DNA of 64,000 nt from Polychytrium aggregatum (lineage: Eukaryota > Chytridiomycota > Chytridiomycetes > Polychytriales). Both the position numbers and the translations under genes were made by a program. Below the pieces are notes generated by a model. It was not told the origin of the DNA, made no database searches, and saw nothing but the letters and a program-made list of their open reading frames with translations. Of this stretch, positions 1,854 through 45,717 are shown piece after piece. The stretch spans positions 248,001 through 312,000 of the forward strand of contig NW_026516216.1 in assembly GCF_025602895.1 (NCBI RefSeq), read 5' to 3'. The first letter of the stretch is position 1. Each line of letters opens with the position of its first letter.

Positions 1854-3917
1854 ATGCTGCCCAGAGCTGCAGAGCAGGTGCCCTGGTTCATCCCTGCCGA
1901 TGCCATCACCGACCTATCCCAGGATCCGATCGCTCGCGGCGGATTTGGCGAGGTCTTCCGAGGCTCGTACTTTGGCTCGGACGTTGCCGTCAAGCGCCTT
2001 CTCGGTGGCTTCAATGGCGGCGAGCTCCAGGAGTTCCAGCGCGAGATTGGTGTCTGGTATGGCCTGAGCCATCCGCACATCATCCCGCTGCTCGGCGCCT
2101 GTCATACGGCCGATCGGCCCTTCATGGTCTCGCCGTTCATGGAAAACGGCACCCTCCGCAGCTACCTTACGGACAATGCTGGCCGCCTCGAAGTCGAAGA
2201 GAAGCTCAGGTTGATGTATCAGGTGGCTTCCGGCATGACCTTCCTTCACCAGCGCAGCATCGTCCATGGTGACCTCAAGACCCTGAATGTTCTTCTCGAC
2301 AAGGGCTACAACGCCGTCATCTCGGACTTTGGCATGTCCCGCACCAAGCATACGTCCTCCTCGATGATCCGGCTCCAACCAGGCGAAAGTGCTGGAGGCA
2401 CAATCGACTACATTGCGCCCGAGATGCTCGACGAGGACGAGCCCGCGGGCTCCTCAAAGAAGACCGACGTGTACGCCTTTGGTATCACTCTCTATGAGGT
2501 TATGAACGACTGTGAATGTGTTTGGGTGTCCGCCGACGGCCAACCCCTGCGACCCCGTGCCATCGAGTCTCTGATTTGCCGAGGCGCTCGGCCCAAAAAG
2601 TTGGACAGTATCCCGCCTCAGATTAGGGATTTGATCCAGAGTTGCTGGCACCAAGAGCCCCGCGAGCGCCCCAAGTTCGAGGAGATTCTGCGCCAACTGA
2701 CCCCATACCGAATCAATGCTCGCCCTGTCGACCGTGATGGCGGCCGGGCATCCGAGCGATCCCGTGGTTCCCGTGAAACCAGAAACTTCTCAACACGCCC
2801 CAGGCGCGACCGTGACGAAGACCCTAGCGTCATCAGCGTTCGTCCCAGACCCGATGGCAATTCAAACTGGTCGGTAGTAGACCCCAACCTCGACCTGGCC
2901 CGGCCTCCCAAGCAAATTGCAGACGAACTCGATGCCATCCCTGGCATCTCTCGGCAGGTTCGGCAGCGCGCCAAGCGAGGCGACCCTGACTCCTGCTTGC
3001 AGATCGCCAACACCATCACGGCAGACACCCCCGGAGCCGATCCCACATGGGATACTGCCGCCGTACTGATCCAAGTCGCTGCCGACAACGAGCACATCGA
3101 CGCCTTTTTCCCACTTGGGTGGTTGTATCTTGCTGGCGTCGGCTTCGGTCAAAACGACACTGATGCGATCACGTACTGGCGGGATTTTGAGACCCGTTCC
3201 GTGGATGTTGGCCTGAAGTCCATCACCACTCTGATGCTGGGCTGGCTCACCTATCTTGGACGAGGTACCGCCAAGGACAAGCAGAAAGGCATCAACCTCA
3301 TCCGTCAAAGCAAGACGGCCGACTTTCCGCTGGGCGAGGCCTGCATGAACACCCGCGCCCCAGCTTCCTCCAACTCGGCTGTGGCAACCAAGTACTTTGA
3401 GATGTGCAAGCTTGGGTCCGAGCGGGATTGGCTGTGCCGGCATCTCATGGCCATGTGCTATCTCGGCGGCTTTGGCACCACCAAGAACCAACCCCTGGCA
3501 ATCGACATCCTGACCGAACTCGCGCAGCAGGGACATGATGTCAGCCAGCACTGCCTGGGTCGGTGCTACGGCATCGGACTCGAGTTCCTCGCCGAAGACA
3601 AGGCCAAGCTGCTCGAATGGTGCACCAAGGCCGCGGATCAAGACAATTCATATGCCCAAAACATGATGGGACGGATCTATACCGAGGGCTGGACTGTCGC
3701 CAAAGACCTTGCCAAAGCCGCCGAGTGGTACCGCAAGGCCAGCGACCAGGGATGCTCTACTGCCCAGTTCAACCTCGCCAACTGCTACGAGCGTGGCATG
3801 GGCGTCGCAAAGGACATACCAACTGCCATCAACCTGTACCGATTGGCTGCTGACCAGGGCGAGTCTGATGCTGCGGACAAGATCAGCCAGCTGACCCGGA
3901 GGGGTATAATTCGCTAG
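1854..3917 (+). CDS. Tyrosine-kinase-like (TKL) protein kinase with C-terminal Sel1 repeats
   Basis: This is a single uninterrupted frame of 687 residues. The kinase domain covers roughly residues 20-285: glycine loop ARGGFGEVFRG, VAVK lysine at 47, catalytic HGDLKTLN (residues 138-145), DFG at 158-160 and an APE motif near 193. The HRD arginine is replaced by glycine, so this is a non-RD kinase; the catalytic Asp and the metal-binding Asn are kept. After a Ser/Arg-rich linker (about 285-370), the C-terminal half is Sel1-like repeats, the last ones clean (for example AAEWYRKASDQGCSTAQFNL). The family phosphorylates Ser/Thr or Tyr, and Sel1 repeats are protein-docking solenoids. No signal peptide or membrane segment is seen, so it should be cytosolic. 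Substrates are unknown. TKL-Sel1 fusions form expanded families in some early-diverging fungi. Confidence 0.9.
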   Translation: MLPRAAEQVPWFIPADAITDLSQDPIARGGFGEVFRGSYFGSDVAVKRLLGGFNGGELQEFQREIGVWYGLSHPHIIPLLGACHTADRPFMVSPFMENGTLRSYLTDNAGRLEVEEKLRLMYQVASGMTFLHQRSIVHGDLKTLNVLLDKGYNAVISDFGMSRTKHTSSSMIRLQPGESAGGTIDYIAPEMLDEDEPAGSSKKTDVYAFGITLYEVMNDCECVWVSADGQPLRPRAIESLICRGARPKKLDSIPPQIRDLIQSCWHQEPRERPKFEEILRQLTPYRINARPVDRDGGRASERSRGSRETRNFSTRPRRDRDEDPSVISVRPRPDGNSNWSVVDPNLDLARPPKQIADELDAIPGISRQVRQRAKRGDPDSCLQIANTITADTPGADPTWDTAAVLIQVAADNEHIDAFFPLGWLYLAGVGFGQNDTDAITYWRDFETRSVDVGLKSITTLMLGWLTYLGRGTAKDKQKGINLIRQSKTADFPLGEACMNTRAPASSNSAVATKYFEMCKLGSERDWLCRHLMAMCYLGGFGTTKNQPLAIDILTELAQQGHDVSQHCLGRCYGIGLEFLAEDKAKLLEWCTKAADQDNSYAQNMMGRIYTEGWTVAKDLAKAAEWYRKASDQGCSTAQFNLANCYERGMGVAKDIPTAINLYRLAADQGESDAADKISQLTRRGIIR

Positions 3918-24202: not shown

Positions 24203-26676
24203 TTAGGCACAGACGAAAGGTCCGGGCACACACTTTTGGCTGGAGGGGCAGGAGCCGATCGAGGTCCAGACGTTGTTGAAGCAGATCAGGATGTCATTGG
24301 CGGAGCCACAGCTGTAAGTGCCAAAGGTCGAGCAGGGAGTGTTGGCGGTAGGGTTGCCGTTGGTGGGGCTAGGGGCGCTGCTGGTGGTAGTGGTAGTGGT
24401 CTTGACGGGGGTGGTGGTAGTGGTGGTGGAAGTCTTGGTGGACTTGGTGGTGGTGGACTTGATAGGGGTGGTGGTGGTGGTGGTCTTGACGGGAGTAGTG
24501 GTAGTAGTAGTAGTGGTGGTAGTGGTGGTGGTGGTGGTGGTAGTCTTGACAGGGGTAGTGGTGGTAGTGGTGGTGGTCTTGACAGGGGTAGTGGTGGTGG
24601 TGGTAGTGGTGGTGGAGACGGGGGGAGGAGGAGGAGGGACGGGGTTGTTGCTGGTGAGGGCCTTCAGGAGAGTGTCGTTCGAGTCATCGCCGTCAATGGG
24701 CCAGACCATGAATCCACCAAGGTTGTTCTGGGCAACATAGGCAACCTTGGCCTGGATGGCCTGGGGAGAGTCGTACGAGATGAAGGTGCCGGAGGGGCTG
24801 AAGGCCCAGCTGGCCTGGGCAACGGGGTCCCAGTAGGTCGTGAGGGTGGTGTCCTTGATGATGGCGTTGTAGTTGGTGCTGCCGTCGCCCTGGGGAGCAG
24901 AGCCCTTCTGGAAGAGTCCGTTGGTGGTGCCGGCGGCGACGCTGACCCACTTGTGGCCGTAAAAGGGAATGCCGACGACAATCTTGTCCGAGGGGCATCC
25001 CTTGGCCCAGTACTTGACGGCATAGTCGACCGAGGTCTCGGGGATGGGGTTGGGAGGGTTGCTGGGAGGGGTGTCGTCGTAGATGGGCGCCTGGTGGTTG
25101 GTGGTGGACTCCCACTCGCCGTGGATGTCGTAGGTCATGATGTTGACATAGTCCAGGTTGCTGCAGATGGTGGGGATGTCGAGCTTGTTCATCTTGTCGT
25201 CGCCAGCGGGGGCAGCCATGGAGATGAGGTAGTCGCTGCCGCTGGGGGTCTTGCCGAGGCTCTTGAGGGCGGCACGGGTCTTGATGAGCAGGTTGTTGAA
25301 CTTGCGCTTGTCGTCGTTGCGGGCGGGGTAGGCACAGGTGGTCTTGGAGCAGTCGTAGGTGTTCTCAGAGTTGCCGGTGCCCGAGGGGGCGCTGGGGCTG
25401 ACGGGCTCGCCGCCGTGCTCCCATCCGGGATACTCCCAGTCATAGTCGACACCGTCAAAGCCAAAGAACTGCACAAACTTGGCAATGCTGTTGACAAAGG
25501 CATCGATGTACTTGTCCTCGGTGGCGGCCGAGAACAGGTTCGAGTCATACCAGCCGCCGATCGAGATGAGGAACTTGATGCTGGGGTTGGCGGGCTTGAG
25601 CTTCTTCAGGACGTAGGCCAGGTTGCCGCAGATGACGGGGCTGCCGTTGGCGTCGGTCTGGATCGAGTTGGGGTCCAGGACAGACTCGCACTGGGGAACA
25701 CGGGGCGAGCCAGGGGCGCCAGAGGGGTTGAAGCACTGGGTGTTGGGGCAAGCGCCAGAGGCACCGACTGAGAGCGGGATAGCAAAGGGCGGAATACACA
25801 ATGTGAGTGGGTCACCAGGCACAATGTGCGAACTGTGGCGGAGGTATGAGCGACAGTCAAGCATCGATGGCCCCGAAATGATGTCGACTTACTGTAGGGC
25901 ACCATGGCGACCTTGCCGCCGGTGCACTGCTTGTTGGCCGGGACGGGGATGCACTCGGTCGGGCAAGAGGTGCCAACACAAGCTTGCTATTGACAGGGAA
26001 GGGGAAGGGCGGCCGGGTGAAACACAACAAGGTCAGCATCGATGGATGAGCAGTGGAGAACACAGCCGAGTCGGGGGACACCGCAAGGGACAGCCAGCAA
26101 TCCATGACGAGGAAAACCTACGTAGTCAGCATAAGCATCGGTGAAGCCAACTAGAGACACAGCGAGTCAGTATCGCAAACTAAACCATCCTAGTGGATCC
26201 ATTCATGCGAGTTCCGAGACCGACAGCATTCACATACCATAGTACTGGTCCGTGGCAGGGTGGTAGTGCACGGTGGCAAAGGCATCTGGCGACGGTGGGG
26301 AAGGGCACGATCAGCGACGTATTTCAAGGGGGGACCAGGCTGTTGATGCGCAGGTCGAGCACAGGTCGGGCACAGGTGCAATTCCTGGTGCACTTACAGT
26401 TGATGTGGGTGTACTTGGAGGCAGCCAGGGGCGAGAGCTGTTGAGCGAGGAAGGACAGCAGGCGGATCAGTACTCGCGACGCCTGCGAGTGGGAAATCAA
26501 GCGACAGAGTGCAAGTCGGCGCCGAGATGTGTGCGCACCGTGTAGGGCTGGTTCTGGTTGTCGTAGAAATACCACGACTCGTGGTAGGCAATGTAGCGGC
26601 TCGCGGCGAGGACGTTCGAGATGCTTCCCGAAAGCGCCAGGATAGCGGCGACGACGGACTTGGTCGAGAGGAACAT
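24203..26676 (-). CDS. Secreted GH18 chitinase with Thr-rich linker and CBM19-type chitin-binding tail
   Basis: Six exons close in frame to 637 residues: 26676-26539, 26437-26398, 26285-26238, 26150-26122, 25986-25893 and 25767-24203. A signal peptide opens the protein (MFLSTKSVVAAILALSGSIS). The GH18 barrel is recognised by FLISIGGWYDSNLFS, the catalytic DxxDxDxE motif in FDGVDYDWEYPGWE, DYVNIMTYDIHGEW and GFMVWPIDGDD. The last Glu of DYDWE is the proton donor, so the enzyme should be active. A linker of Thr runs broken by PVK follows, likely heavily O-glycosylated. The C-terminal Cys-rich segment (STFGTYSCGSANDILICFNN, then SSQKCVPGPFVCA) fits CBM19, as in yeast CTS1. It hydrolyses chitin outside the cell, in wall remodelling or nutrition. 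A Cys-rich insert (exon 5 and the start of exon 6) sits near the N terminus. Confidence 0.93.
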
Positions 26677-33600: not shown

Positions 33601-34527
33601 CGCTTATAGGATCGAGCATTGCAATGCGATGCGGCTGGATACGGCGCATGGAAACCGAGGCGTTGAGCCTACCGTTCTTTGATGTGGTTGTAGTCCACGG
33701 CATAAACAATCTCGTCCGTGTCCTTTTTGATTTTCCAGAGCGCCCCGCCGATCGTACGTCCAGCCGGATAGGCCGTGATGGTGATCCCTTGGCACTTGCC
33801 TGGAGAACAACAGTGCCGTTAGGAGCTCGAACCCAGAGCGCCGCCGCAGATGACGCCCCTCGCAACGATCTGACGGTGATCGGATATCCGTCTCAACGAG
33901 GGCTGCCACTGGCCGTGCTCGTTGCAAAGTGGGGCCGGAAGCAGCAGACCCACCGAGCAGGGCAAACGGCTGGGAATATCTCAGCGGCAGAATGTTTTCG
34001 AACGCGGCGTCCACTTCGTCCAGCGAGAAGACCTTGAACTCTTCGACTTCGGATCGACTCTGGAAGGCATCGTAGAGACAGATCTGGCCCATGTCGTGGA
34101 CTGGAATGGTTGCGTATGCCGGGCAGGTGAGGCCGAGTTGGCCATAGGCGTAGGGATAGGCACCCATGTGTGCAATGTCGCTGTGCGAGATCAGGACAGC
34201 ATCGATGTGCTTGGCCAGTCTGTTGGATGAAACGGGTCATTCAGCAGCGTGAGGGCAATGTGGATGCACGCTATCGGACATGAGGTGGAACATATGTTGC
34301 GTCGCTCCCGGATCCACCCACAGTCACTATCTGTGCTATCGGACATGAGTGGAGGCAGATCCGCTCTGCTGGCCGAACCTTTTGAGGGAGGTGAGGTCAT
34401 CGGGTTCAAAGCGGTCCGACCATCCGCAGTCCAGCAAAATCTTTGCGCTGTCGACCTCTAGCAGATAGCAGAGCGGATCCTCGTTCTGGGCACCAGTCAG
34501 TGGCGTGAATTTGATGAACGCAGCCAT
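30651..34527 (-). CDS. CFT2: Cleavage and polyadenylation specificity factor subunit CFT2/CPSF2
   Basis: Eleven exons close in frame to 819 residues: 34527-34379, 34219-33954, 33799-33673, 33493-33366, 33117-32826, 32715-32439, 32328-31924, 31791-31615, 31489-31352, 31269-31225 and 31106-30651. The protein is the non-catalytic metallo-beta-lactamase/beta-CASP partner of the CPSF73 endonuclease in mRNA 3'-end processing. Family landmarks are [119 protein letters not shown] and the C-terminal [20 protein letters not shown]. The HxHxDH zinc motif of active nucleases is replaced here by HSDIAH, which is normal for this subunit. An acidic Asp/Ser insert lies in exon 7. The call is certain. Confidence 0.97.
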
Positions 34528-35244
34528 TGCCTGATCGACAGAGCGGAGGAGGCAGACGCAAGGGGTGATCGATCTTGGCTGGATGCGAAGATCAGGCGAG
34601 AGATGGGCTGGACGCGGCCTTGGGCTGGCCCGCGTGGCAGGTCTGGTGCTGCGCACCGGGCGAATCAGCCGAGACCTTCCCACGATGGTTCGTGAGGATG
34701 CTGGGCATGTTGCTTGGCTGCATCCTGCTGTCTGGGATACGAGACTCTGACGGGCGGTGTTGATCTGGGACCGCCGTCGCATATGCTTGCGAGAAGCACC
34801 CGGCCGTTGCCCTCGTCCTGGTCACGGAGCGATGATTCGCTCAGAACTGAAATATCTGTGATTGGGTTGGTTTTTGAAGGATGTAATCAACGATATTCGA
34901 TCTTGCATCTCGGCTTTATCAGGATTCCTGTCTGGAATTTTTAGTTCATCCCACTTGAAGCGAGCATATCGACAACATTTTTGTCAATTTTCGTATGTAT
35001 TCAAAGAAATTGCTGGATGACAAACATCAGGCCCTTTGCCTGGGTCAAAACCAGACCAAATACAAATATATCGTGGGACTCTGAGCAAAGGTCGCGAAAA
35101 ATGCTGGATGAGTCCGAGATAACGGCACTTGTTCCATAACTGACTTCATCAGTATAAGGTTTACCGAAGTGATCACCAAGCATGGCGTGATGAAAAGGGA
35201 GCCCTTTCGAGCGCTGTTTAGACAATATTCACCAACTGAGAAAA
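34528..35244. other. Intergenic region, left edge of an AT-richer segment
   Basis: No gene is seen. Base composition changes from GC-rich to AT-richer at about 34.85 kb, just before the NLR-like gene. The first part is the CFT2 promoter. Confidence 0.5.
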
Positions 35245-38200
35245 TTAATCGCGACCGGCGATCGATACCGTCGATGCTCTCTCATCTCGACTGGTTAATT
35301 TTCGGGTGAAATCCACAATAGATGCATTTTCGAGAATAACCGACGAATAAGCAGGAGGTTGATCCTCAACCCGATCCCCAACCTCGATCTCAATCTGGAG
35401 GGTGGAAGTGTTTGGAAGGTGGGTCTCGCCTGTCCTCTGACCTGTCTGGTAACCTCGGACTTCATTTGGTGATTCTTGTCCTCCCACAGTTGCACTTGAC
35501 ACCGCACTGTGCTTGTGCGATACGGAGCTGGCCTGATCTTCATTCAAGAAATTGACATGATTATGATTTTCTGCAGTGACTGGAGCTTCGTCATTGACAA
35601 AATATTGATTGAAGGCTTTGGCATAGTAGCGACAGGCTTCGATGAGGGGACGATCCATCTTGCAATCTTCTTCCCTGGCCTTCCGCTTGAGCTCCTCGAT
35701 CTTTTTTTGGTGAGCTTGGTCCTTCACTTCTTTGACCAGAGAGATGATCTTGAGGGCTTCTTGCAACAGCTTGATCGCGCTCATCAATTCATTCCTGCTC
35801 GTGCCTTTTTCGGCATCGCTCAGAGCATCCCATTTGTCCATGAACACATGCGCCTTGTTGTATAATGCCGTGGCGATTTCTTGGATATTGCGAGTGTAGA
35901 ACGACTTTTCATAAACTCTGATGGCCTCATCGTACTGCATGTTTGCATCTTCGTATTGCTTGTGGGATGCAAGCGTCTCGGCAAGATCAATATGGGCTTT
36001 GGCAATAGATGGATGGGCAACTTCTCCATGAAATTCTTTCAGCTCCTTGATGGCAAGCAAACGATTCCTGATGGCGTCGTCAGGACAATCCTGGAAAAGA
36101 TCGATCGCTGCCATGCTGGAGTAAATTTCGGCCTTGTACCGCTTGTCATAGCTCTCACCAATATCTGGCTCGAGCTCTGATACGATCTTGTAAGTTTCCA
36201 AAGCCTGCTGGCGGTCGTTAAGTCTCTCCAAGGTTTTACCAAGTTTTATGTACGTCTCTGCGACATCCTGATTGTAGATTTTGTTGCCATAAACCTCCTT
36301 GAGAATACCAATTGATTCAGAATATAGGGTCTTGGCGAGCTGAAGGGACCCTTCCTTGATTGCAACATCGCCTTTGATTGCTTGAATGTGGGCAACGTAT
36401 ATCTTAGACTGGACGTCTCCGTTGACGCCGCAAAGCTCTTTGGCCTCATCAAGATATTCTCGAGCACGAGAATACTGATTGAGCTCATAGGTAGCTTTCG
36501 CGATATCCATCAAGGCGTCGACTTTTGTTATGATATTGGGGCTGTCACTGCCATCAAGCAGATCCAGAACGCGGGTATAACCTTCTTGCGCCCGGTGGTA
36601 GTGCCCACGAGTCAGATCCAGCCTCGAGCTCGTCAGTTCGATCTGAAAATGGAGATCTTGTGGAAGAGAATTTGGTGGAAGTTGCTTCAAATAGGCTTCG
36701 AAGTGGGAACATTTATCAAAAGAGAAACTGTTGCGTGGATCTCCAAGGAACTCGATGAGGGCTCTGCCCGTGGTCTCAAGAACGGGAAAGCCAAAAAGCT
36801 CCGGATTATCATTTGCATATGATCTTCCGATTTGCTGCTTGAGAGGATTCGCTCTACACATATCATCTTCTGTTTCATTCAACAATGCAAGTTCAATCAA
36901 CCGAGGGTAGGTTTCCATCACTAAAATTGAACAGATGGAAGGCTACATGAGAGTGTGCTCGCAACAACCAGCACTGCTTTGCATCGATGTTTCAGCTCAC
37001 GTACATTCGTCACCACGACCTTGTTGTTCCGAAATTGTCTTGATTAACTCGTATGGAATGTTCTCTGATCCGATGTAGCATATTGCCGAATAGAGGCAGC
37101 AAGTCGCGTGTCCAGTTGGTCCTTTGTTCATTTCGCCATCCAGCGTCATGGTGACAATTGCTCGCAACGACAGCTGAGCATCGGTTTCCCCGTGATTCCG
37201 ATTCAAGACCTGGCCAAAAGCTCGCTCGAGCTCTGCCAATGGAATCGTGTTTGAATCAAAGAAGAATATGAAAGTGTGCAAAACGAGATTGTTGGAGTAA
37301 ATCCTCGATATGAGATTTTTCACTTTGGCGATGGACTCTCGGGACTTGGCTTTATTGGAGAGCTTGGGGCACTGTTTCATCACGTAGTCAAACGCGATTT
37401 CTTGCGACCATGGCATAATCATCAGAGGGTCAAATGTATATCGATTGACTTTGAATTTGAACGCCTGGTTGAATGCACCTTCCGCGATCGAGGCCGCTCG
37501 CGAAGTGACAATGACATCTCCACCAAAGCCGTGTTTCCTTGACTCTCCAAACACGGAATTCAAAACGTCAATGTCGTCTCCATTGTCGAGTATCAGGAGG
37601 TAACCGCTGCTCTCAGCAAAGACCTTGGCGGCGTGCTTCTTGATTTCGCCTGCCTTCATCCCAGGAAATATTTCCTGGAGCCCAGAGAGAGCTGTTGTCT
37701 CGGTTGAGCAGTTGATCAGAAAAATCTGGCTGTACTGGGGTACTGATCCAATAGTTTCATTTTTTAGCTCGCTGAGCTCTTCGCTATCTGTATCAAGTAT
37801 ACCCATCATGAATCGAACAAACTGAAGGGCGAGAACGGATTTGCCGATACCACCCATTCCAGAGATAAAGGCACGACCTGTCAGTGTGATTCTCTGGAGT
37901 AGGGCGTCAAGGAGGAGGTGATCAACTCGAAGATTTGAGTCGTACTGATATTTTGAGGAGGCCTTGATTCTGTCCTCCGGTGTGGGAGGTCTAGGGGAGA
38001 GGCGATTGGAGAGAAAGCTGATCCGCTTATACATCTGGTTCGGATGAAACTTCCCCATGCTGATACTGTTCAGTCTGTCGATGGTTTCCCTGAGGGACTG
38101 AAACTGAGGCTCGTCGGGGATGGCAAATTCAAAGGGTTTGAACTCGTGGAATATTTCGCTTCCGTCTCTGTTCTCCTTCGTGGCCACAGCTAAAGGGAAA

Positions 38201-38565
38201 ATGTGCAACCCGGGGTTGTCGTCCTTCAAGTCGAGTGCAGTCTCGAGCTCAAGTACAACACTGTCTATATATCCAGACTGGACCTTATCGATCATGGTTT
38301 GCATCGAAGCTTGGCTAAGAAGGAAAATAACGGCCCTACAATTTTCCATGGCGGAAAGGAATCGGTTTTGGATCATTTGGCCCATCTGTATACAATTCTT
38401 ATCAAAGAATATTGCAGGGGGCTGGCCATGCCGGCGCTTGGCAAAGGCTGTGAGACGATCGTGAAGAAGCTTAGCAGTATCCTCGTCAGCATCAGCGCGA
38501 TACGAAATGAAAATATCATGATGCAATCCGTGAACATCGCAAGAATATGGCTCCGTCTCCGTCAT
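35245..38565 (-). CDS. TIR-NB-ARC-TPR (NLR-like STAND) protein
   Basis: Two exons, 38565-37005 and 36920-35245, join in phase 1 to give 1078 residues. The TIR domain (about residues 15-135) shows HHDIFISYRADADEDTAKLL, the BB-loop-like FFDKNCIQMGQMI, ENCRAVIFLLSQAS and VVLELETAL, where Glu106 or Glu108 is the likely NADase-type glutamate. The NB-ARC/STAND NTPase has P-loop SGMGGIGKSVLALQF (235-249), Walker B YLLILDNGDD (322-331) and GGDVIVTSR. The expected GLPL motif is degenerate (SNNLVLHTF). The second exon is an array of TPRs (for example DVAETYIKLGKTLERLND) with a disordered tail. By analogy with plant and bacterial TIR-NLRs, TPR sensing would trigger oligomerisation and TIR signalling; this is inference. 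The frame continues upstream to an ATG at 38820, but 38565 starts just before the TIR domain and matches the paralog. The paralog at 40076 is divergently transcribed. Confidence 0.9.
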
Positions 38566-40075
38566 CTTGTTGAATGGTTTAAGAGACGTACACCCTGAGG
38601 TTGTGGCGATGGCTCGAAAGAAGAGGAACTTCGACAGGTAAATATGCAGAGCGGCGTGATCTCCTCGGTCGACGGCGACAACCCGACCCCGGAAGGTCAT
38701 GTTTTGAGAGCGGCAGCACAGCGGATCGGGATCTCGGGAATGTCCAGCGTGGACCGAGATGTAAGAGTGGACTTGTGCGCCACCAGGAGCGCCACCGATT
38801 TTCTTTCTCCTTTTCATCAAATTTGACTCGAGAAGTCAATGTCATTATCGCGCATGGCGACGATTTCATGGGGCGGCCCATTTCACGAACTGTGACTGAC
38901 AGACACTGGCTTACCCCCATTCTGCCCCAAACAAACGGAGAAGGGTATCTTGGGGAGTGTCAAAGCTTGGTGGCTGAGGGCGGATGGTGAGTCACATCCC
39001 GGAGTCGCCTGTGAAAACGACTTCGACCATGGGCGGGTGATCATTATCGTTGGGGCAAAAATGCAAGCCGTGGAAGCGCATGCGGCCGCGGGGGATGCTT
39101 GGCGTGACACTTTGGGTTTGACGGCCACAATTTCTGGACCCCATCCACAGGCACGTTTCCCGCGGTGGCCGTCAACCGCATGGTTCAAGGCGACGTGATA
39201 CCCTCGTGCCTGCGGAGAGCAGTGGTTGCTTGGTGGTTTGGGAACCTCCGCCACCGGCAGAGGAGCCAAGACCGGCACCAGTCGATTCTTGCACTCGCGG
39301 AGCGGATGCAACGCGCCTGAGATTTGCTCGAGATATGAGCACCAAAACTCGAAATTATTTTAATGATGCTGTGCTCATGAAGCCGGGAGAGTATATTGAA
39401 GAGTCCGCTGAACATGGCCAATTGATACCGCCCGGGCGTGCCACCATAGGATAATCCACGAAATGACCCACGAATAATTTTCACTCCAGGACAAATTCAT
39501 CTGGCAAGCCCAGAGCATGCGGTGGGTATTCATATGGATCCGCGAATATGATGACAGCGCATTTATATTGTAATATTGTCAATTGAAATGCCTCTTCTTT
39601 AAAAGGGTGCTCGACTTGTCATTTTTGTCACGAATCACCTCAAGGCTCTCACGATAAGACCTTGGCTACAAAGGTTTTGTTGGCGGGCCCCCTGAAAATC
39701 TTCGATACGCAAAGCAAGGTCTTGACATATCACCGTTGGATGACTCTGACTCATTTTGATCACACTGTGTGTTTCGTGATTCATGTTTATCGATTGGGTT
39801 TGATGCATTCTTTCCCGTTTTCAATTGCCAATTGTAACGTCTGAGGAGCCGCCTCTGATTGGTAATACTGTCAAATTTGGCGAGTTCACCCACTCGTGCC
39901 CCAAAATAAAATTTTGGAGGAGAGTCATGCGCCAACCAAATTCGGCCTCCGTGTGGCCACATAAAATGGAGCCGATGGGGGGGGGTTTCCACTCAAATCA
40001 GCCAGCCAAAGCTTGAAAATATAGATCTATTCGTGTCCAAGAATCCCGACTCTTCCCGACACTACTTCAGGTCGG
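38566..40075. promoter_or_regulatory. Divergent intergenic region between the two NLR-like genes
   Basis: The two paralogs start back to back here, so the region must contain both promoters. Short AT-rich stretches are present near 39540-39600 and 39780-39850 and just upstream of the plus-strand ATG (aaaatatagatc near 40016), but no certain TATA box can be chosen. No third gene was found; the open frames are short and show no motifs. Confidence 0.55.
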
Positions 40076-43000
40076 ATGGCAACTCAACAACCTTCGTCCT
40101 GCTGTTCAGTCCATGGGCTAACGCATGACATAACCTTATTTTGCCAAGAGCAAGTCGATGCGTCCATCGAACAGAAACTCGGAGCCCTTCTCGCATCAAC
40201 TTGGCTCCGTCGATCGGGCGAGAGACTATCAATTTACACTCGATCCGAATGCCAGACTATCGGCGACGCCACTGGTCATGATCAAGCCCTCTCCAGTAGC
40301 TCCGGAGCTCTTCTTGTCATGGATGAGGGAGATGCTCAGACCCATGAACTTGAGCATAGCGCCAGCTTCATCGACAAACTCATCTCATCTCTGAAAGGCG
40401 ACGCTCTGAAGCCTGGTTTTCCCGTTGTTGTGCTCACCCTCTCTGTTAAAGAACAAAAAATCAAACCGACTGATCCACATGGCTCTACCGAGGCCATTGC
40501 AACATATTCATTTGGAATTAAGGCTCTGGACCGCTATCCACAACTAAACAGGGGATCCGTTTACAACCTTGACCCCAAGCGAATCTACAGGCGAATTTAC
40601 TTCCTTATAAGCATCTTCAAGCCCACTCTGGTCCTCGAAAAAACGACTCTCAAAATCGCGCGGTCTCTCACGTGCGACTCCGAATTCCGTATCGACGCCT
40701 GCGAGCTGGATCGAATCCTGGAACAGATCACCAAGTATGGAAGATCGATCATCTCGGGGATGGGTGGAATGGGAAAGTCGGTGTTGGCCCGTCAATTTCT
40801 CGGCTTCATGATGGGGTCTCTAGCTGTTCACAATTCCAAAGATCTTACGGATCTGAGGAAGCAAACACTTCTGGAATCTAACCATTACACTGAAGTCTAC
40901 TGGATCAACTGCGCAACAGAGCTGTCTGCGTTGAATGGTCTTCAAGAAATCCTTCCAAACGCCAAGACGGATGAAATCAAAAAGCATGCCTCAGACTTCC
41001 TGGCGACCACCCGGCAGTATCTCTTGATTCTCGATAACGTCGACGACATTGGTGTGGTCGATAGCGTTTTCGAGCACTCCAGAAGCCTAGGATTTGGTGG
41101 CGATGTCATCATAACTACTCGCCTCGAGACGATCGAAGATGGAATGTTCCTGAAGGCCTTTAAGCACAATGTCTCAGGCTTCCACACAGAGCCGATTGTG
41201 CTCCGTCCGTGGTCGACAGATATAGCATATGACTTCATCCTCGATACTACCGAAAATGCGAACATCCAGGATACTGAATATGGCAACAGATTGCTCAGCA
41301 TCGTACAGAGCATCCAGGGATATCCACTTGTCGTTCGGACATTTCAAATCCTCCTCAAGAACGGCGAAGTTTCCTTGAGTGAAGTCGAGACTGCGCTTCG
41401 CACAGCTATGAGCGGTACTGGGGACCAAGGAGACTCAAGGTCGCTCCATGTCATTGTATCTCTCTCGATGTCGAAGCTCATGAAACGAGGGACTCAGGGT
41501 ATTGAGGCCTGCAAGCTGTTTGCGGCCACGTCGTTGCTGGGCCCCGACAACATTCCATACGGCCTAATCAAGGCCATCGCCGCAGAAATGAAGTTGACTG
41601 GTCCAGGTTCGTGTTTTGGGTGCTCAGTATCATAATTTGGTGGTTCAAGCTTCTATTATACTAAAGACCATTTCTATTTTGTGATACTCAAAACTTTGCA
41701 GCCACCGCTCTCGCAACCCTCCTTGGCCAGAGTGGACTGATTCGCTTAGGCGCTGATGACAACTACCACACTCACTCACTGATCCAACAAGTTGCGCAGC
41801 AGTTCAGCGAATCAACTCACGAGCTCGCCTTTAGCGAGGTGATAAATGCTACTGGATCGGCCATGTTGAGCTTTGAAAAAACGCTGGGACTCAAGGCACA
41901 CAGTCTCTCTGAGCACTTTGAACACTATGCAGCGAAAGCAATCCCTGAGACATACTCAGCTCAAATGCACGCCGAAATTGAAAAGGCTTTGGCCATGCAA
42001 TTGTCAGACAAGGCACTCTATGGTGCAGCCATTTCCGTCTTTGAACGAAATCTGCGGCGGTCAGAGATCCTCTTCGAAACAAGATTGAATCCATTGGTTG
42101 GAACCATACTCAAGGAAATGGGCGACACAATGCATGCGATGGGGCGCCTTGACCAAGCAATGGAGTGCTTGAACGAATCTCTACATATCACTATCTTGTG
42201 CTTCGGCACTCGGAACAATCCGCAAACCCCTCCCATTCTCAATAGCATCGGCGGGTTGAAGAGATCTACCGGTGACCTCTCCGATGCTCTTGAATGCTTT
42301 CAAGAGGCCGAAGATATCATGGCCAACTCTTCCACGGGTAAATGTGAGCGGATATTGGGGCAAATCGTAGGCAACATTGGCCTCGTGTCAAAATCCAAGG
42401 GACTCTTCATCCAAGCTTTTGATGAATACGAGCAGGCCACGCAGCTTGAGCAAATTGATTCCGGCAACAGCCAAAGCCTTAGTAGGGCAGTGAACCTTAA
42501 TAACATGAGCCCGATTGCAAGATATCAGGGAAGATACGATGAAGCAATCAAACTTTGCCAAGATTCACTCGAAATCAAGAAGAAGATCTTCGACACTGAG
42601 GACCATCCCGGAATAGCGAAAACATACCAAAATTTGGGACTGATCATGAGAGACAAGGGCGACCTGCATGAATCCCTTCGGTACTTCACCAAATCCATAG
42701 ATATATTCAAGGCTGTCTATAAAACTAATGAACATATCGACATTGCCGGAGTGTTGACGAATATTGGTGTCATCGAAAGTGAACTCGAACACCACGATTC
42801 CGCGTTTCGGCACCACCAGGAGGCATTGGATATTTTGAAGAATATCCAGGGATACCAGACCCATCCTCTCTATTTGATCATTATGCAAAATATTGCCTTG
42901 GAGATGGATTCCCAAGGTCAACTCAAAGATGCTCTCAATCGTCTGAAGGAATTGAAAGAATTACACCTTAATCTAAAGGAGAATATGAGCCAGAATGATT

Positions 43001-44712
43001 ACGCCCGAGTGCTGTACAATATTGGGAAAGTAGCATATTCGATGGGATCGATATATGAAGCCAAGGACTACATCGCCGAAGGAATCAAAGTGACGAGCAA
43101 GATACATGGAACTCGTGTGAACCCGGATCTGGCGCTCGCCAATTGTACTATGGCGAAAATTCTCAGCGACCTGGGCGACTCCTGTCGGGGACTTCAACTC
43201 TGTCAGGAGTGCCTATCAATTTTCGAACATATATACGGAACGCGCAAGCACGCCGTGATTGCGAGGATTCTCTCAATAATGGGAGGAATCGCATCGGCAG
43301 CGTGGCAGTTTGACGACGCCGTTCAGCACTACAGAGATTCCATCGCAATCTTCGAGCATATTTCCGAAGCACAATATTCGAGTTCGATTGTCTCACTTCT
43401 CGTTGGCTTAGGGTTTGTTCTGAGCGAGCAAAAAAATTACGATCAGGCCCATTCGTGTTTTCTGAAAGCGCTCAAGATTTGCCGAGAGATTGGGGAACCA
43501 CAAGGATACTTACCCACTGCAACTGTGCTCAATGGCATCGGAGTAACCCTGATAAACCGTGGTCGTCTTGACGAAGCGCAGTCAAAACTCCAAGAAGCTC
43601 TGAATGTTTGTAAGAATGTCAAAGGCGACCGGAGATTCCCTGTCATGACAGCTGCTATTCAAAACTTGGGGACAGTGGCGAGGAAACAAGACAAGCCTCA
43701 GGAGGCGCTCAAGTATTTTAGAGACGCCCAAATGATAATGAAGAGCAATGGTTTTGGAAACGCCATAACTCATTCAGCCAACCTTGAAATGATAGCGAAG
43801 ATCGAGCATAAATGCGGAGACCATGAGTCAGCTTTGAGGGACTACCAAGAAGCGGTTGATATCCTGGTGAAGTTCTTCAATACAAAGTCTCATGAGAAAG
43901 TCGTCCAAGCCATGTGTAACGTCTTGTCAATTCGTGTTTACTTCAAGAACTATCGAGAATCCGACGCACTTGCTCAAGAAATCATTTCTATAATGGAAAA
44001 ACTCCTTGGGTCTCGTCATCACGCGCTCATCGCACATGCTTTGATCCATCAAGGAATATCAGCAAAGGCAAATAACTCACACGAATGTGCATGGAAGTAT
44101 CTCCAGGAGGGCCACGATATCCTGGTGAAGCTGAATGACGAGGAGTATATGTGCCATTTATCCGTGGCTTTGAGGGCCATGGGTGAGCTGAGCTATTCGA
44201 AACGTAATTTAAAAATGGCGTTCAAACTGTTCGAGGAAGCAATGACAACTTCTGTAAAAGCCAATGGAACAAGGAATCATATTGATTCTGTCAACATCTT
44301 GAATCTAATGGCTACCGTCGCTGACGACGAAGGATATCATGAGAAATCTACAAACCTGTATTCAGAAGCTCTACGTATCTTGAAAACTCTGGATGGAAAT
44401 CATGAAAAGGAAATTGCCAGGGTGCTTTCTAACCTTGGATATTGCACACTAAAGGGAGGTGACTTTGATTTGAGCTTTCGATATTACGAACAGTCACTTG
44501 ACTACTGGGAGCGTGCTTATGGAACGCGCAACACACCAGACGCTGCGGAATGCTTAAGAAGTATGGCCATGGCGAAGGCACTATCAAGAGACGAGGAAGG
44601 AGCGCAAAGGTTTACTCATCAGTTCAAGGAGATCATGCACGCAATTCAGAATGATGGGCAGACTGTCTCTGGTGAATATGTCGCACTGAGATTCCGCCGA
44701 GCTGGTATGTGA
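40076..44712 (+). CDS. NB-ARC-TPR (NLR-like STAND) protein with degenerate TIR-like N terminus
   Basis: Exons 40076-41606 and 41702-44712 join in phase 1 to give 1513 residues. The N terminus aligns with the neighbouring TIR-NLR (CSVHGLTHDI against CDVHGLHHDI), but the TIR core is eroded: FISY is replaced by TLFCQ, and the region of the catalytic Glu reads SFIDKLISSL. The NTPase is well kept: P-loop SGMGGMGKSVLARQF (227-241), Walker B YLLILDNVDD (315-324), GGDVIITTR and a GLPL-like GYPLVVRTF. The second exon starts with a winged-helix-like segment (ATLLGQSGLIRLGADDNYHT) and then about 900 residues of kinesin-light-chain-type TPRs (for example DHPGIAKTYQNLGLIMRDKG). Family knowledge: TPRs sense, NB-ARC switches. 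I infer a sensor-type partner of the divergent TIR-NLR. The shared intron position shows common descent. Confidence 0.9.
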
Positions 44713-45238
44713 GCGCTATGTTTTCACCGGATCATCCATCTGCTAGATATTTGAAGTTCAGACAGTCTTCACAGAACGACCAATAAACTCGTTTACAGCG
44801 TGTTGAAGAGAAATGGGACACATCGTCTCATTCGGATAAACACAGCGTAGCCGGATCATGTCACACACCCAGCCTAGTGGGTCAAATCGTTTCCCTGTGT
44901 GAGCGAGATGCATGGTGTCGGTCTGCTTCATGGAGTCGGTCCATCCATGATTCCAATATCCGCGGTCGATATCTCATCGACAGAGTCCCACCACAACAGT
45001 CAAACCAGGCACTCCCGAACGTCAGCCATTGGTGTTTGCAATCAGGGCCACCAGCACTGGATCGCGACGAGCAGTTTGTCGACTCGGGATCGGAGCCAGT
45101 GGATCGATGCACGCCTCCGGTTGTCGATTTCTGCCCTTGCGCTTGACGGCCGAGATGGCGAGCCATGCACATTGGGATCCAGACCACGGATGCCGAGGCG
45201 TGGATACCGTGGTCGCTTGCAACCAGGGCAGTTTGCAA
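44713..45238. other. Convergent intergenic region
   Basis: No gene is seen. It marks the right edge of the AT-richer segment; composition becomes GC-richer after about 44.9 kb. An 18-bp sequence (gtttgcaatcagggccac) occurs at 45035 and again at 45231, inside the 3' end of the neighbouring Sel1 remnant boundary. Confidence 0.5.
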
Positions 45239-45717
45239 TCAGGGCCACTTGCCGAGCTTCTCGAGGTGGTCGATGGCCCATGGGTGACCCTGGTCCGCGG
45301 ACTTGCGGAGCCAAACGATAGCAGTGTCCATGTCCTTGGCGACCCCGCGGCCATCAAGATAGTCCACGCCGAGACAGCTCTGTCCGTACCGGTTGCCCTG
45401 GTCGGCCGACAGGCGATACCACTCTGCTGCCTTGGCAACGTCCTCAGCGGTGCCGTATCCGTTGTGATGACACACACCGACTTTCCACTGTCCATACGAG
45501 TTGCCCTGGCGTGCTGACTTGGCGAATCACTCGAATATCGTCGACTCGGCCGTCGATGGTCCGCAGCCGTGCTGACAGCACCGTGCCAGCCAGAACTGGC
45601 TGTCGCTGTGGCCGTCGTTGGCGAGCTGCTCAAAGATTGTTGCGGCCCTGTCCTTGTCTCGCTTCGTTCCGAGTCCGTTCATCAGAGCGCAAGCGGGGCA
45701 CTCACCGCGGATTGTCT
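45239..45717 (-). pseudogene. Sel1-repeat protein remnant with in-frame stop
   Basis: The minus strand encodes about four Sel1-like repeats in one register: NGLGTKRDKDRAATIFEQLA, then QFWLARCCQHGCGPSTAEST, then NSYGQWKVGVCHHNGYGTAE, then YGQSCLGVDYLDGRGVAKDM, ending LEKLGKWP and a stop at 45239. A TGA at 45527-45529 interrupts the frame exactly where the repeat consensus wants Trp (IFE-stop-FAKSARQGNSYG), so TGG to TGA is the simplest explanation. No 5' end, kinase domain or signal peptide can be attached; upstream the sequence becomes compositionally non-coding. It may be the tail of a decayed Sel1 or TKL-Sel1 gene like the one at 1854. If the TGA were read through or were a sequencing error, the fragment would still be too short to be a complete gene. 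Confidence 0.7.

Follow-up and report, generated by a model that had tools for sequence, protein, structure and literature searches.

A 64,000-nucleotide stretch of the genome of the chytrid fungus Polychytrium aggregatum (contig NW_026516216.1, positions 248,001 to 312,000; hereafter the window, to which all unprefixed positions refer) carries two paralogous NOD-like receptor (NLR) genes, A and B, that diverge from a common intergenic region. We propose that this locus is a paired-NLR module in which A is the executor and B its sensor or regulator, a reading to which we give a probability of about 0.5. A sequence-only reading of the window had already suggested a sensor-plus-executor pair; this suggestion gained some evidence from a complementary loss of motifs in the two proteins and from a second adjacent gene pair that groups with A and B, although the TIR of B turned out not to be recognizably catalytic.

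Genes A and B are paralogs that diverge from a 1.5-kb intergenic region

Gene A lies on the minus strand (complement(35245..36920, 37005..38565)) and encodes a protein of 1,078 residues with the layout TIR, NB-ARC, TPR and unique tail. Gene B lies on the plus strand (40076..41606 and 41702..44712) and encodes 1,513 residues arranged as a degenerate TIR, an NB-ARC and a long TPR array. Both genes have two exons and an intact frame with a single clean intron between the NTPase part and the TPR part, namely an 84-nt GT..AG intron at the NB-ARC/TPR boundary of A (36921..37004, minus strand) and a 95-nt GT..AG intron at the same domain boundary of B (41607..41701, plus strand). The annotated relative P0001 (BJ171DRAFT_567225) agrees with the exon boundary of these models, as its alignment to the genome breaks near residue 526 into two segments, one covering residues 1-526 (100% identity) and the other residues 524-728 (99%). 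The two genes share a divergent intergenic region of 1,510 bp (38566..40075), which matches only its own place in the genome. The frames, the intact spliced models and this spacer confirmed the divergence of two genes from one region of about 1.5 kb, and the alignment of A with B over 898 residues (29% identity, E 3e-93) bore out their paralogy, both of which had been read from the sequence alone, as had the fungal nature of the host.

All genome searches covered the single 64.7-Mb assembly of P. aggregatum (Chytridiomycota; 418 contigs), in which C followed by a number denotes a contig and L followed by a number an extracted locus. We rejected an origin of A and B from a single gene by recent inverted duplication, as their first exons are 35% identical and each gene is nearer to other members of the family (46% identity for exon 1 of A). 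A second haplotype of the A/B locus was also discarded, since neither the intergenic region nor the 9.2 kb to the right has a second match besides short repeats. Uniform random placement of 78 genes, a simplification given that real genes are not uniformly placed, yielded P = 0.038 for a head-to-head pair within 1.6 kb anywhere in the genome and P = 0.14 for an adjacent pair of any orientation within that distance. The adjacency of A and B is therefore mildly surprising at most when taken by itself.

The two proteins show complementary wear

Exon 1 of A matched the Pfam model TIR_2 at 32.1 bits (cut-off 28), and its TPR array, shorter and weaker than that of B, matched TPR_12 at 55 bits (cut-off 30.1). 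The NB-ARC of A scored 18.1 bits, under the Pfam cut-off of 23.5, and aligned with the other family placements through the P-loop, Walker B and sensor 1. The corresponding scores for B were 35.0 bits for NB-ARC and 281 bits for TPR_12, both above cut-off, with no TIR family among its Pfam matches up to E 1. The common TIR/NB-ARC/TPR organization ascribed to the pair by the sequence-only reading thus holds for A, and for the NB-ARC and TPR parts of B, but not for a recognizable catalytic TIR in B.

The TIR core of A (HHDIFISYR to VVLELETAL; 38233..38523, minus strand) keeps the SYR motif and a glutamate, Glu106, in the column of the SARM1 TIR segment KEIVTAL. A TIR profile of six family members found the SARM1 TIR as its best solved-structure match (E 5e-6), and in that alignment the glutamates shared a column; as sole query, the N-terminus of A retrieved no TIR structure in the solved-structure search. 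We take the SARM1 glutamate in this column to be the catalytic E642, and its counterpart makes A a putative catalytic TIR NAD hydrolase. The P-loop of A is also intact (GMGGIGKS; 37837..37860, minus strand). At the GxP (GLPL-type) position (37270..37299, minus strand), A reads YSNNLVLHTF where most of the family reads GYPLVIQTF, and the proline is gone; at the MHD-type position (36832..36858, minus strand), it reads ANPLKQQ in place of the common THSLTQQ, and the histidine is gone.

B shows the converse pattern. A TIR profile built from 54 family rows, B not among them, gave the first 190 residues of B a score of 42.7 bits, compared with a best score of 8.0 bits among 2,000 shuffles; the first-round model that gathered the 54 rows had itself contained B. 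On this score, the first domain of B is a degenerate TIR, descended from a TIR (40121..40393, plus strand). LFC replaces the SYR motif, and the aligned column (SFIDKLISSL) contains no glutamate. The alignment is loose there, with the closest glutamates located upstream, in HELEH. The candidate of B as a full TIR enzyme was rejected on these grounds, as there is neither a Pfam TIR match nor a counterpart of the glutamate in the aligned column. On the plus strand, the P-loop (GMGGMGKS; 40757..40780) and the GxP motif (GYPLVVRTF; 41318..41344) of B are intact, and its MHD-type motif (YHTHSLIQQ; 41764..41790) keeps the histidine.

Judged from these motifs, the wear is complementary: A has kept the TIR glutamate and lost the GxP and MHD residues, whereas B has lost the glutamate and kept both switch motifs. 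Mean identities to other family members, calculated for 17 hand-picked rows against up to 47 other members each, follow the same division. A was lowest of the 17 rows in the MHD block (19.9%, versus 43.7% in its TIR), B was lowest in the TIR (26.0%, versus 34.7% in its MHD block), and both stood at about 57% in the P-loop part.

Exon 2 of B contained no recognized integrated decoy domain among the best 25 of 29 Pfam families; those above cut-off were TPR types together with SPO22 and MIT, the last two lying on the TPR stretch. An integrated domain in the C-terminal stretch of A (last 131 residues; 35245..35640, minus strand) was likewise set aside, its best other match in the genome being no better than E 0.23.

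Switch-motif losses are rare in a large TIR-NB-TPR family

Exon 1 of A found at least 86 exon matches in the genome at E <= 1e-5 and exon 1 of B at least 83, both lower bounds because only the best candidates were scored; the Pfam NB-ARC model found six matches. Merging exon pieces by eye gave at least 78 family placements (A, B and 76 others), leaving out small fragments on C202 and C334. Many placements are near-identical on two contigs, so that distinct genes are fewer than 78. Motifs were read in 57 placements (A, B, the C35 member via P0001, and 54 from extracted loci). When clustered by their NB-ARC block, these fall into 51 groups at a 98% identity threshold and into 42 at 95%. The scores of the 21 remaining placements suggest that they are near copies of those read.

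The MHD histidine was absent from 2 of the 57 placements, namely A and the plus-strand gene of an adjacent pair on C168 (C168+; its minus-strand neighbor is C168-), and the GxP proline from A alone. The TIR glutamate was absent from B and two further members among 52 readable placements, the column being unreadable in C68:590k, C50, C134, C146:142k and C370. The probability that both MHD losses fall by chance among the four paired genes ranges from 0.004 (57 genes) to 0.008 (40 genes). Elsewhere in the family, C57:649k (L041) has a broken P-loop (GAEGDEHS).

Protein database searches for relatives beyond P. aggregatum gave five distinct proteins, all from P. aggregatum; about 8,000 best candidates were scored in each search and few of this species' own members were returned, so little weight lies on absence elsewhere. 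Six contigs (C312, C222, C339, C70, C113 and C405) carry one member each, roughly 7 to 11 kb in from the start, which might place these members close to chromosome ends; four tandem copies of the telomere repeat TTAGGG had no match in the genome. Further TIR_2 matches, at L001 to L005, L007 and L008, were not among the listed exon-1 matches of the A/B family.

A second adjacent pair groups with A and B

Adjacent members were limited, among the matches listed, to the divergent A and B and to two convergent genes at C168:468-476 kb, which recur at identical spacing on C362. A further 72 of the 78 placements adjoin no other member in these matches, and where other placements share a contig, the match lists put them over 60 kb from each other. 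Because the C168 pair is convergent, it is adjacency that recurs, at more than one locus of this one genome, and not the head-to-head layout named in the sequence-only reading. A shared promoter as a conserved feature of the pairs is unsupported for the same reason.

Each pair contains one member with a non-canonical MHD position (ANPL in A and TSAL in C168+, versus THSL in B and C168-), and long TPR arrays are found in both B and C168-, the latter with 226 bits for TPR_12. In an NB-ARC block tree of 29 rows and 316 columns, A, B and both C168 genes formed one clade with support 99/98. The same clade received a support of 97 in a quick tree of 45 rows, and 94/96, just below the starred level, in a tree with a single C168 row. 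The later NB-ARC sets omitted the very long C370 row, near-duplicates and fragments, and the 29-row set also the long rows C241, C403, C134 and C146:142k. When the four-gene clade was held in the 59-row set and in the 58-row set without C370, the trees lay 45.5 and 36.4 log units above the free search (p-AU, the P value of the approximately unbiased test, 0.88 and 0.947, respectively).

The second exons link A with C168+ more directly. Beyond its own locus, the best genome-wide match of A exon 2 was C168+, together with the copy on C362 (116.3 bits, residues 3-436), followed by a match of 73.6 bits that ends at residue 362, and the two exons align across their full lengths of 558 and 548 residues. 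An exon-2 tree of 16 rows, from which the TPR-less P0001 and the duplicate P0003 had been dropped, joined A and C168+ at 100/99 and rejected the groupings of A with B (p-AU 0.0025) and of C168+ with C168- (p-AU 0.0096); a 20-row version joined A and C168+ at 99, with a long-branch warning. These comparisons suggest that A and C168+ represent one type of gene. An older sister relation of A and B is thus rejected by exon 2. For B and C168-, a sister relation was not borne out, as they are not mutual best matches. A duplicated ancestral pair as the source of both loci accordingly has good support from A and C168+, and is no more than compatible with the data on the B side.

Several observations weigh against this origin and against the module that we propose. 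The free quick search of the 59-row NB-ARC set did not resolve the four-gene clade, whose support went up once long and duplicate rows were dropped, and a simple sister relation of A and B is not rejected in the NB-ARC block (p-AU 0.776). In exon 2, the four-gene clade is neither shown nor rejected (p-AU 0.186), long branches may inflate the grouping of A with C168+, and the reverse search from C168+ favored A over P0005 by a small margin (128 versus 125 bits). Exon 2 of B matched C42 (281 bits) better than C168- (191 bits), and B grouped weakly with C168- in the exon-2 tree (78/66). The two C168 genes share an inverted repeat of 3,125 bp at 99.94% identity (C168:466632-469756 and 474490-477614; L039, L042 and L069), with 2,111 bp at 100% identity within L039; it spans the 5' flanks, the TIR and part of the NB-ARC of both genes and may be a matter of gene conversion or of assembly. 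The two rows are therefore not independent over these parts, and in the short ARC segment beyond the repeat the paired genes are not distinctive, C168+ being the best match of A by 0.8 bits. Both TIRs of the convergent C168 pair keep the glutamate, so that complementary TIR loss is confined to A and B; GxP loss is seen in A and not in the C168 pair, and B is not unique in its glutamate loss, which it shares with the singletons C241 (L054) and C403 (L057). The motif statistics are post hoc, the tests having been picked after the motifs were seen.

C168+ (L039:2604-4283, plus strand) also has a strongly hydrophobic C-terminal end (19-residue Kyte-Doolittle mean of 3.03, compared with a highest value of 1.37 in A), a possible C-terminal membrane anchor.

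Proposed mechanism and alternative explanations

NLRs in their off state keep ADP bound through the GxP and MHD positions. A carries a glutamate-bearing TIR on an NTPase with an intact P-loop; with the GxP proline and the MHD histidine of these ADP-clamping positions gone, A would not rest stably off alone. B, with its intact switch motifs and longer TPR array, would restrain A by contact between the two TIRs, between the two NB domains or both, and free it once its TPR array or its switch senses a non-self cue. The TIRs of released A would then assemble and either use up NAD or generate a signal, with cell death or a defence response as the outcome. The parts of this scheme that we infer are the instability of A in the off state, the physical interaction of A with B, sensing by B, the NADase activity and the biological outcome. 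Such a division of labor has counterparts in plants, as described in parts of PMC12405136 and PMC4246468: MHD changes often cause NLR autoactivity, RGA4 carries TYG in place of MHD and is autoactive in a P-loop-dependent manner with RGA5 as its partner, and the TIR of RRS1 inhibits that of RPS4. By analogy, A fits the RGA4 kind, with an altered MHD, an intact P-loop and a TIR with glutamate, and B fits a restraining sensor, with intact switch motifs, a TIR without glutamate and a long TPR array. A broader claim, which we hold with slightly less than even confidence, is that this early-diverging fungus has an old, duplicated immune module of two receptors, in which an enzymatic TIR protein whose switch has been released is restrained by a partner with an intact switch, that the split between sensor and executor arose independently of plants, and that the module belongs to a large TIR-NB-TPR repertoire mostly missed by the standard NB-ARC profile.

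A and B could instead be two decaying neighbors in an expanding NLR family, the switch of A and the TIR of B having been lost under weak constraint and without joint function. Both genes do sit on long single branches in the 29-row NB-ARC tree (1.05 and 0.83, versus a median of 0.09), losses occur in other members too (the TIR glutamate of C241 and C403, the P-loop of C57:649k), and uniform placement leaves chance neighbors within reach. Decay sits poorly, however, with two intact frames of 1,078 and 1,513 residues, clean introns, and strongest wear in opposite domains of the two proteins, and chance adjacency is weakened by a second adjacent pair that groups with A and B and whose A-like gene also lacks the MHD histidine; we therefore regard this explanation as unlikely, though worth keeping in view. 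Plant NARY bears on another possibility: in the portions of PMC12405136 that concern it, this protein is not autoactive despite degenerate Walker B and MHD motifs, lies head-to-head with NRCX and causes no cell death. This example runs counter to an autoactive A, which might by the same token be a modulator damping B or other family members in a regulatory pair of the NRCX/NARY type, its altered MHD reflecting lost switching. The loss of GxP besides MHD and the shorter, weaker TPR array of A would suit that role; the TIR glutamate, SYR motif and P-loop that A keeps do not, nor does a B with intact switch motifs yet no glutamate in its own TIR, and we rate such a pair as rather improbable. Finally, two independent NLRs might have stayed adjacent through low recombination or a shared promoter only. 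Most family members do stand alone, as the 72 solitary placements indicate, but an A-like gene adjoins a long-TPR gene at the second locus (L039) as well, and the different orientation there makes a shared promoter insufficient, which leaves this last explanation with very little probability. The paired module, with A as executor and B as its restraint, remains the reading that we prefer.

Relation to known systems

The plant pairs RGA4/RGA5, RPS4/RRS1 and CHS3/CSA1 resemble the A/B locus in having two adjacent NLR genes with a division of labor, according to the sections of the literature that treat them. The likeness to RGA4 lies in the non-canonical MHD and intact P-loop of A, and that to RPS4/RRS1 in their TIR-type members. 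The fungal proteins differ in carrying TPRs where plant NLRs carry leucine-rich repeats and in having no recognized integrated decoy; moreover, B lacks the TIR glutamate, and the second fungal pair is convergent. The resemblance to plant TIR-type NLRs is seen at the level of domain type. Among fungi, head-to-head NLRs are rare in the Sordariales (13 of 225 two-NLR clusters; PMC12258605, in part) and share with A and B their genomic layout; they are ascomycete genes, the main text of that paper has no word beginning with TIR, and its passages on them describe no complementary motif loss.

The sequence-only reading also took the pair to be a candidate for an undescribed module. TIR domains in NLRs of plants, bacteria and Chytridiomycota are already stated in a single sentence of PMC9815663, a sentence that covers neither pairs nor copy number nor motifs. 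Dyrka 2014 found no NLRs in chytrids (PMC4986451, in part). Novelty therefore does not extend to chytrid TIR NLRs as such; among the papers listed in searches of open-access literature, none concerned a fungal TIR-NLR pair or NLRs in Polychytrium. Bacterial NB-ARC/TPR STAND proteins of the FxSxx_TPR family (NF040586) have a similar NB-ARC and TPR layout, and exon 1 of B and of A matched this model at 50.9 and 27.7 bits, far under its cut-off of 300 bits; A and B also differ in carrying eukaryotic introns. With PADLOC models, A had only weak matches of TIR type and B had none. The TIR NADase SARM1, the best structural match of the family TIR profile with its glutamate column aligned, presumably differs from A in having neither NB-ARC nor TPR.

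If the module is real, paired receptors with split sensing and killing arose also in a fungus with TIR-NB-TPR proteins, and not only in plants with leucine-rich repeats, and the logic of NLR pairing would become testable in a simple heterologous system. The contrast between six Pfam NB-ARC matches and at least 86 exon matches points in addition to a large, poorly annotated chytrid NLR repertoire.

Other features of the window

To the left of A, part of a frame at 34336-34782 (minus strand) resembles by eye the start of a CPSF2-like protein. Beyond B, a 134-bp piece at 45008-45141 occurs again on the same contig (C46:335119-335252, 99% identity), and the segment at 45225-45686 has at least 38 related places across the genome (68-80% identity), its frame resembling Sel1-type repeats by eye. 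Farther away, and also judged by eye, frames at 1854-3917 (plus strand) and 24203-25864 (minus strand) appear to encode a protein kinase followed by Sel1-like repeats and a GH18-type chitinase with a threonine-rich linker, respectively.

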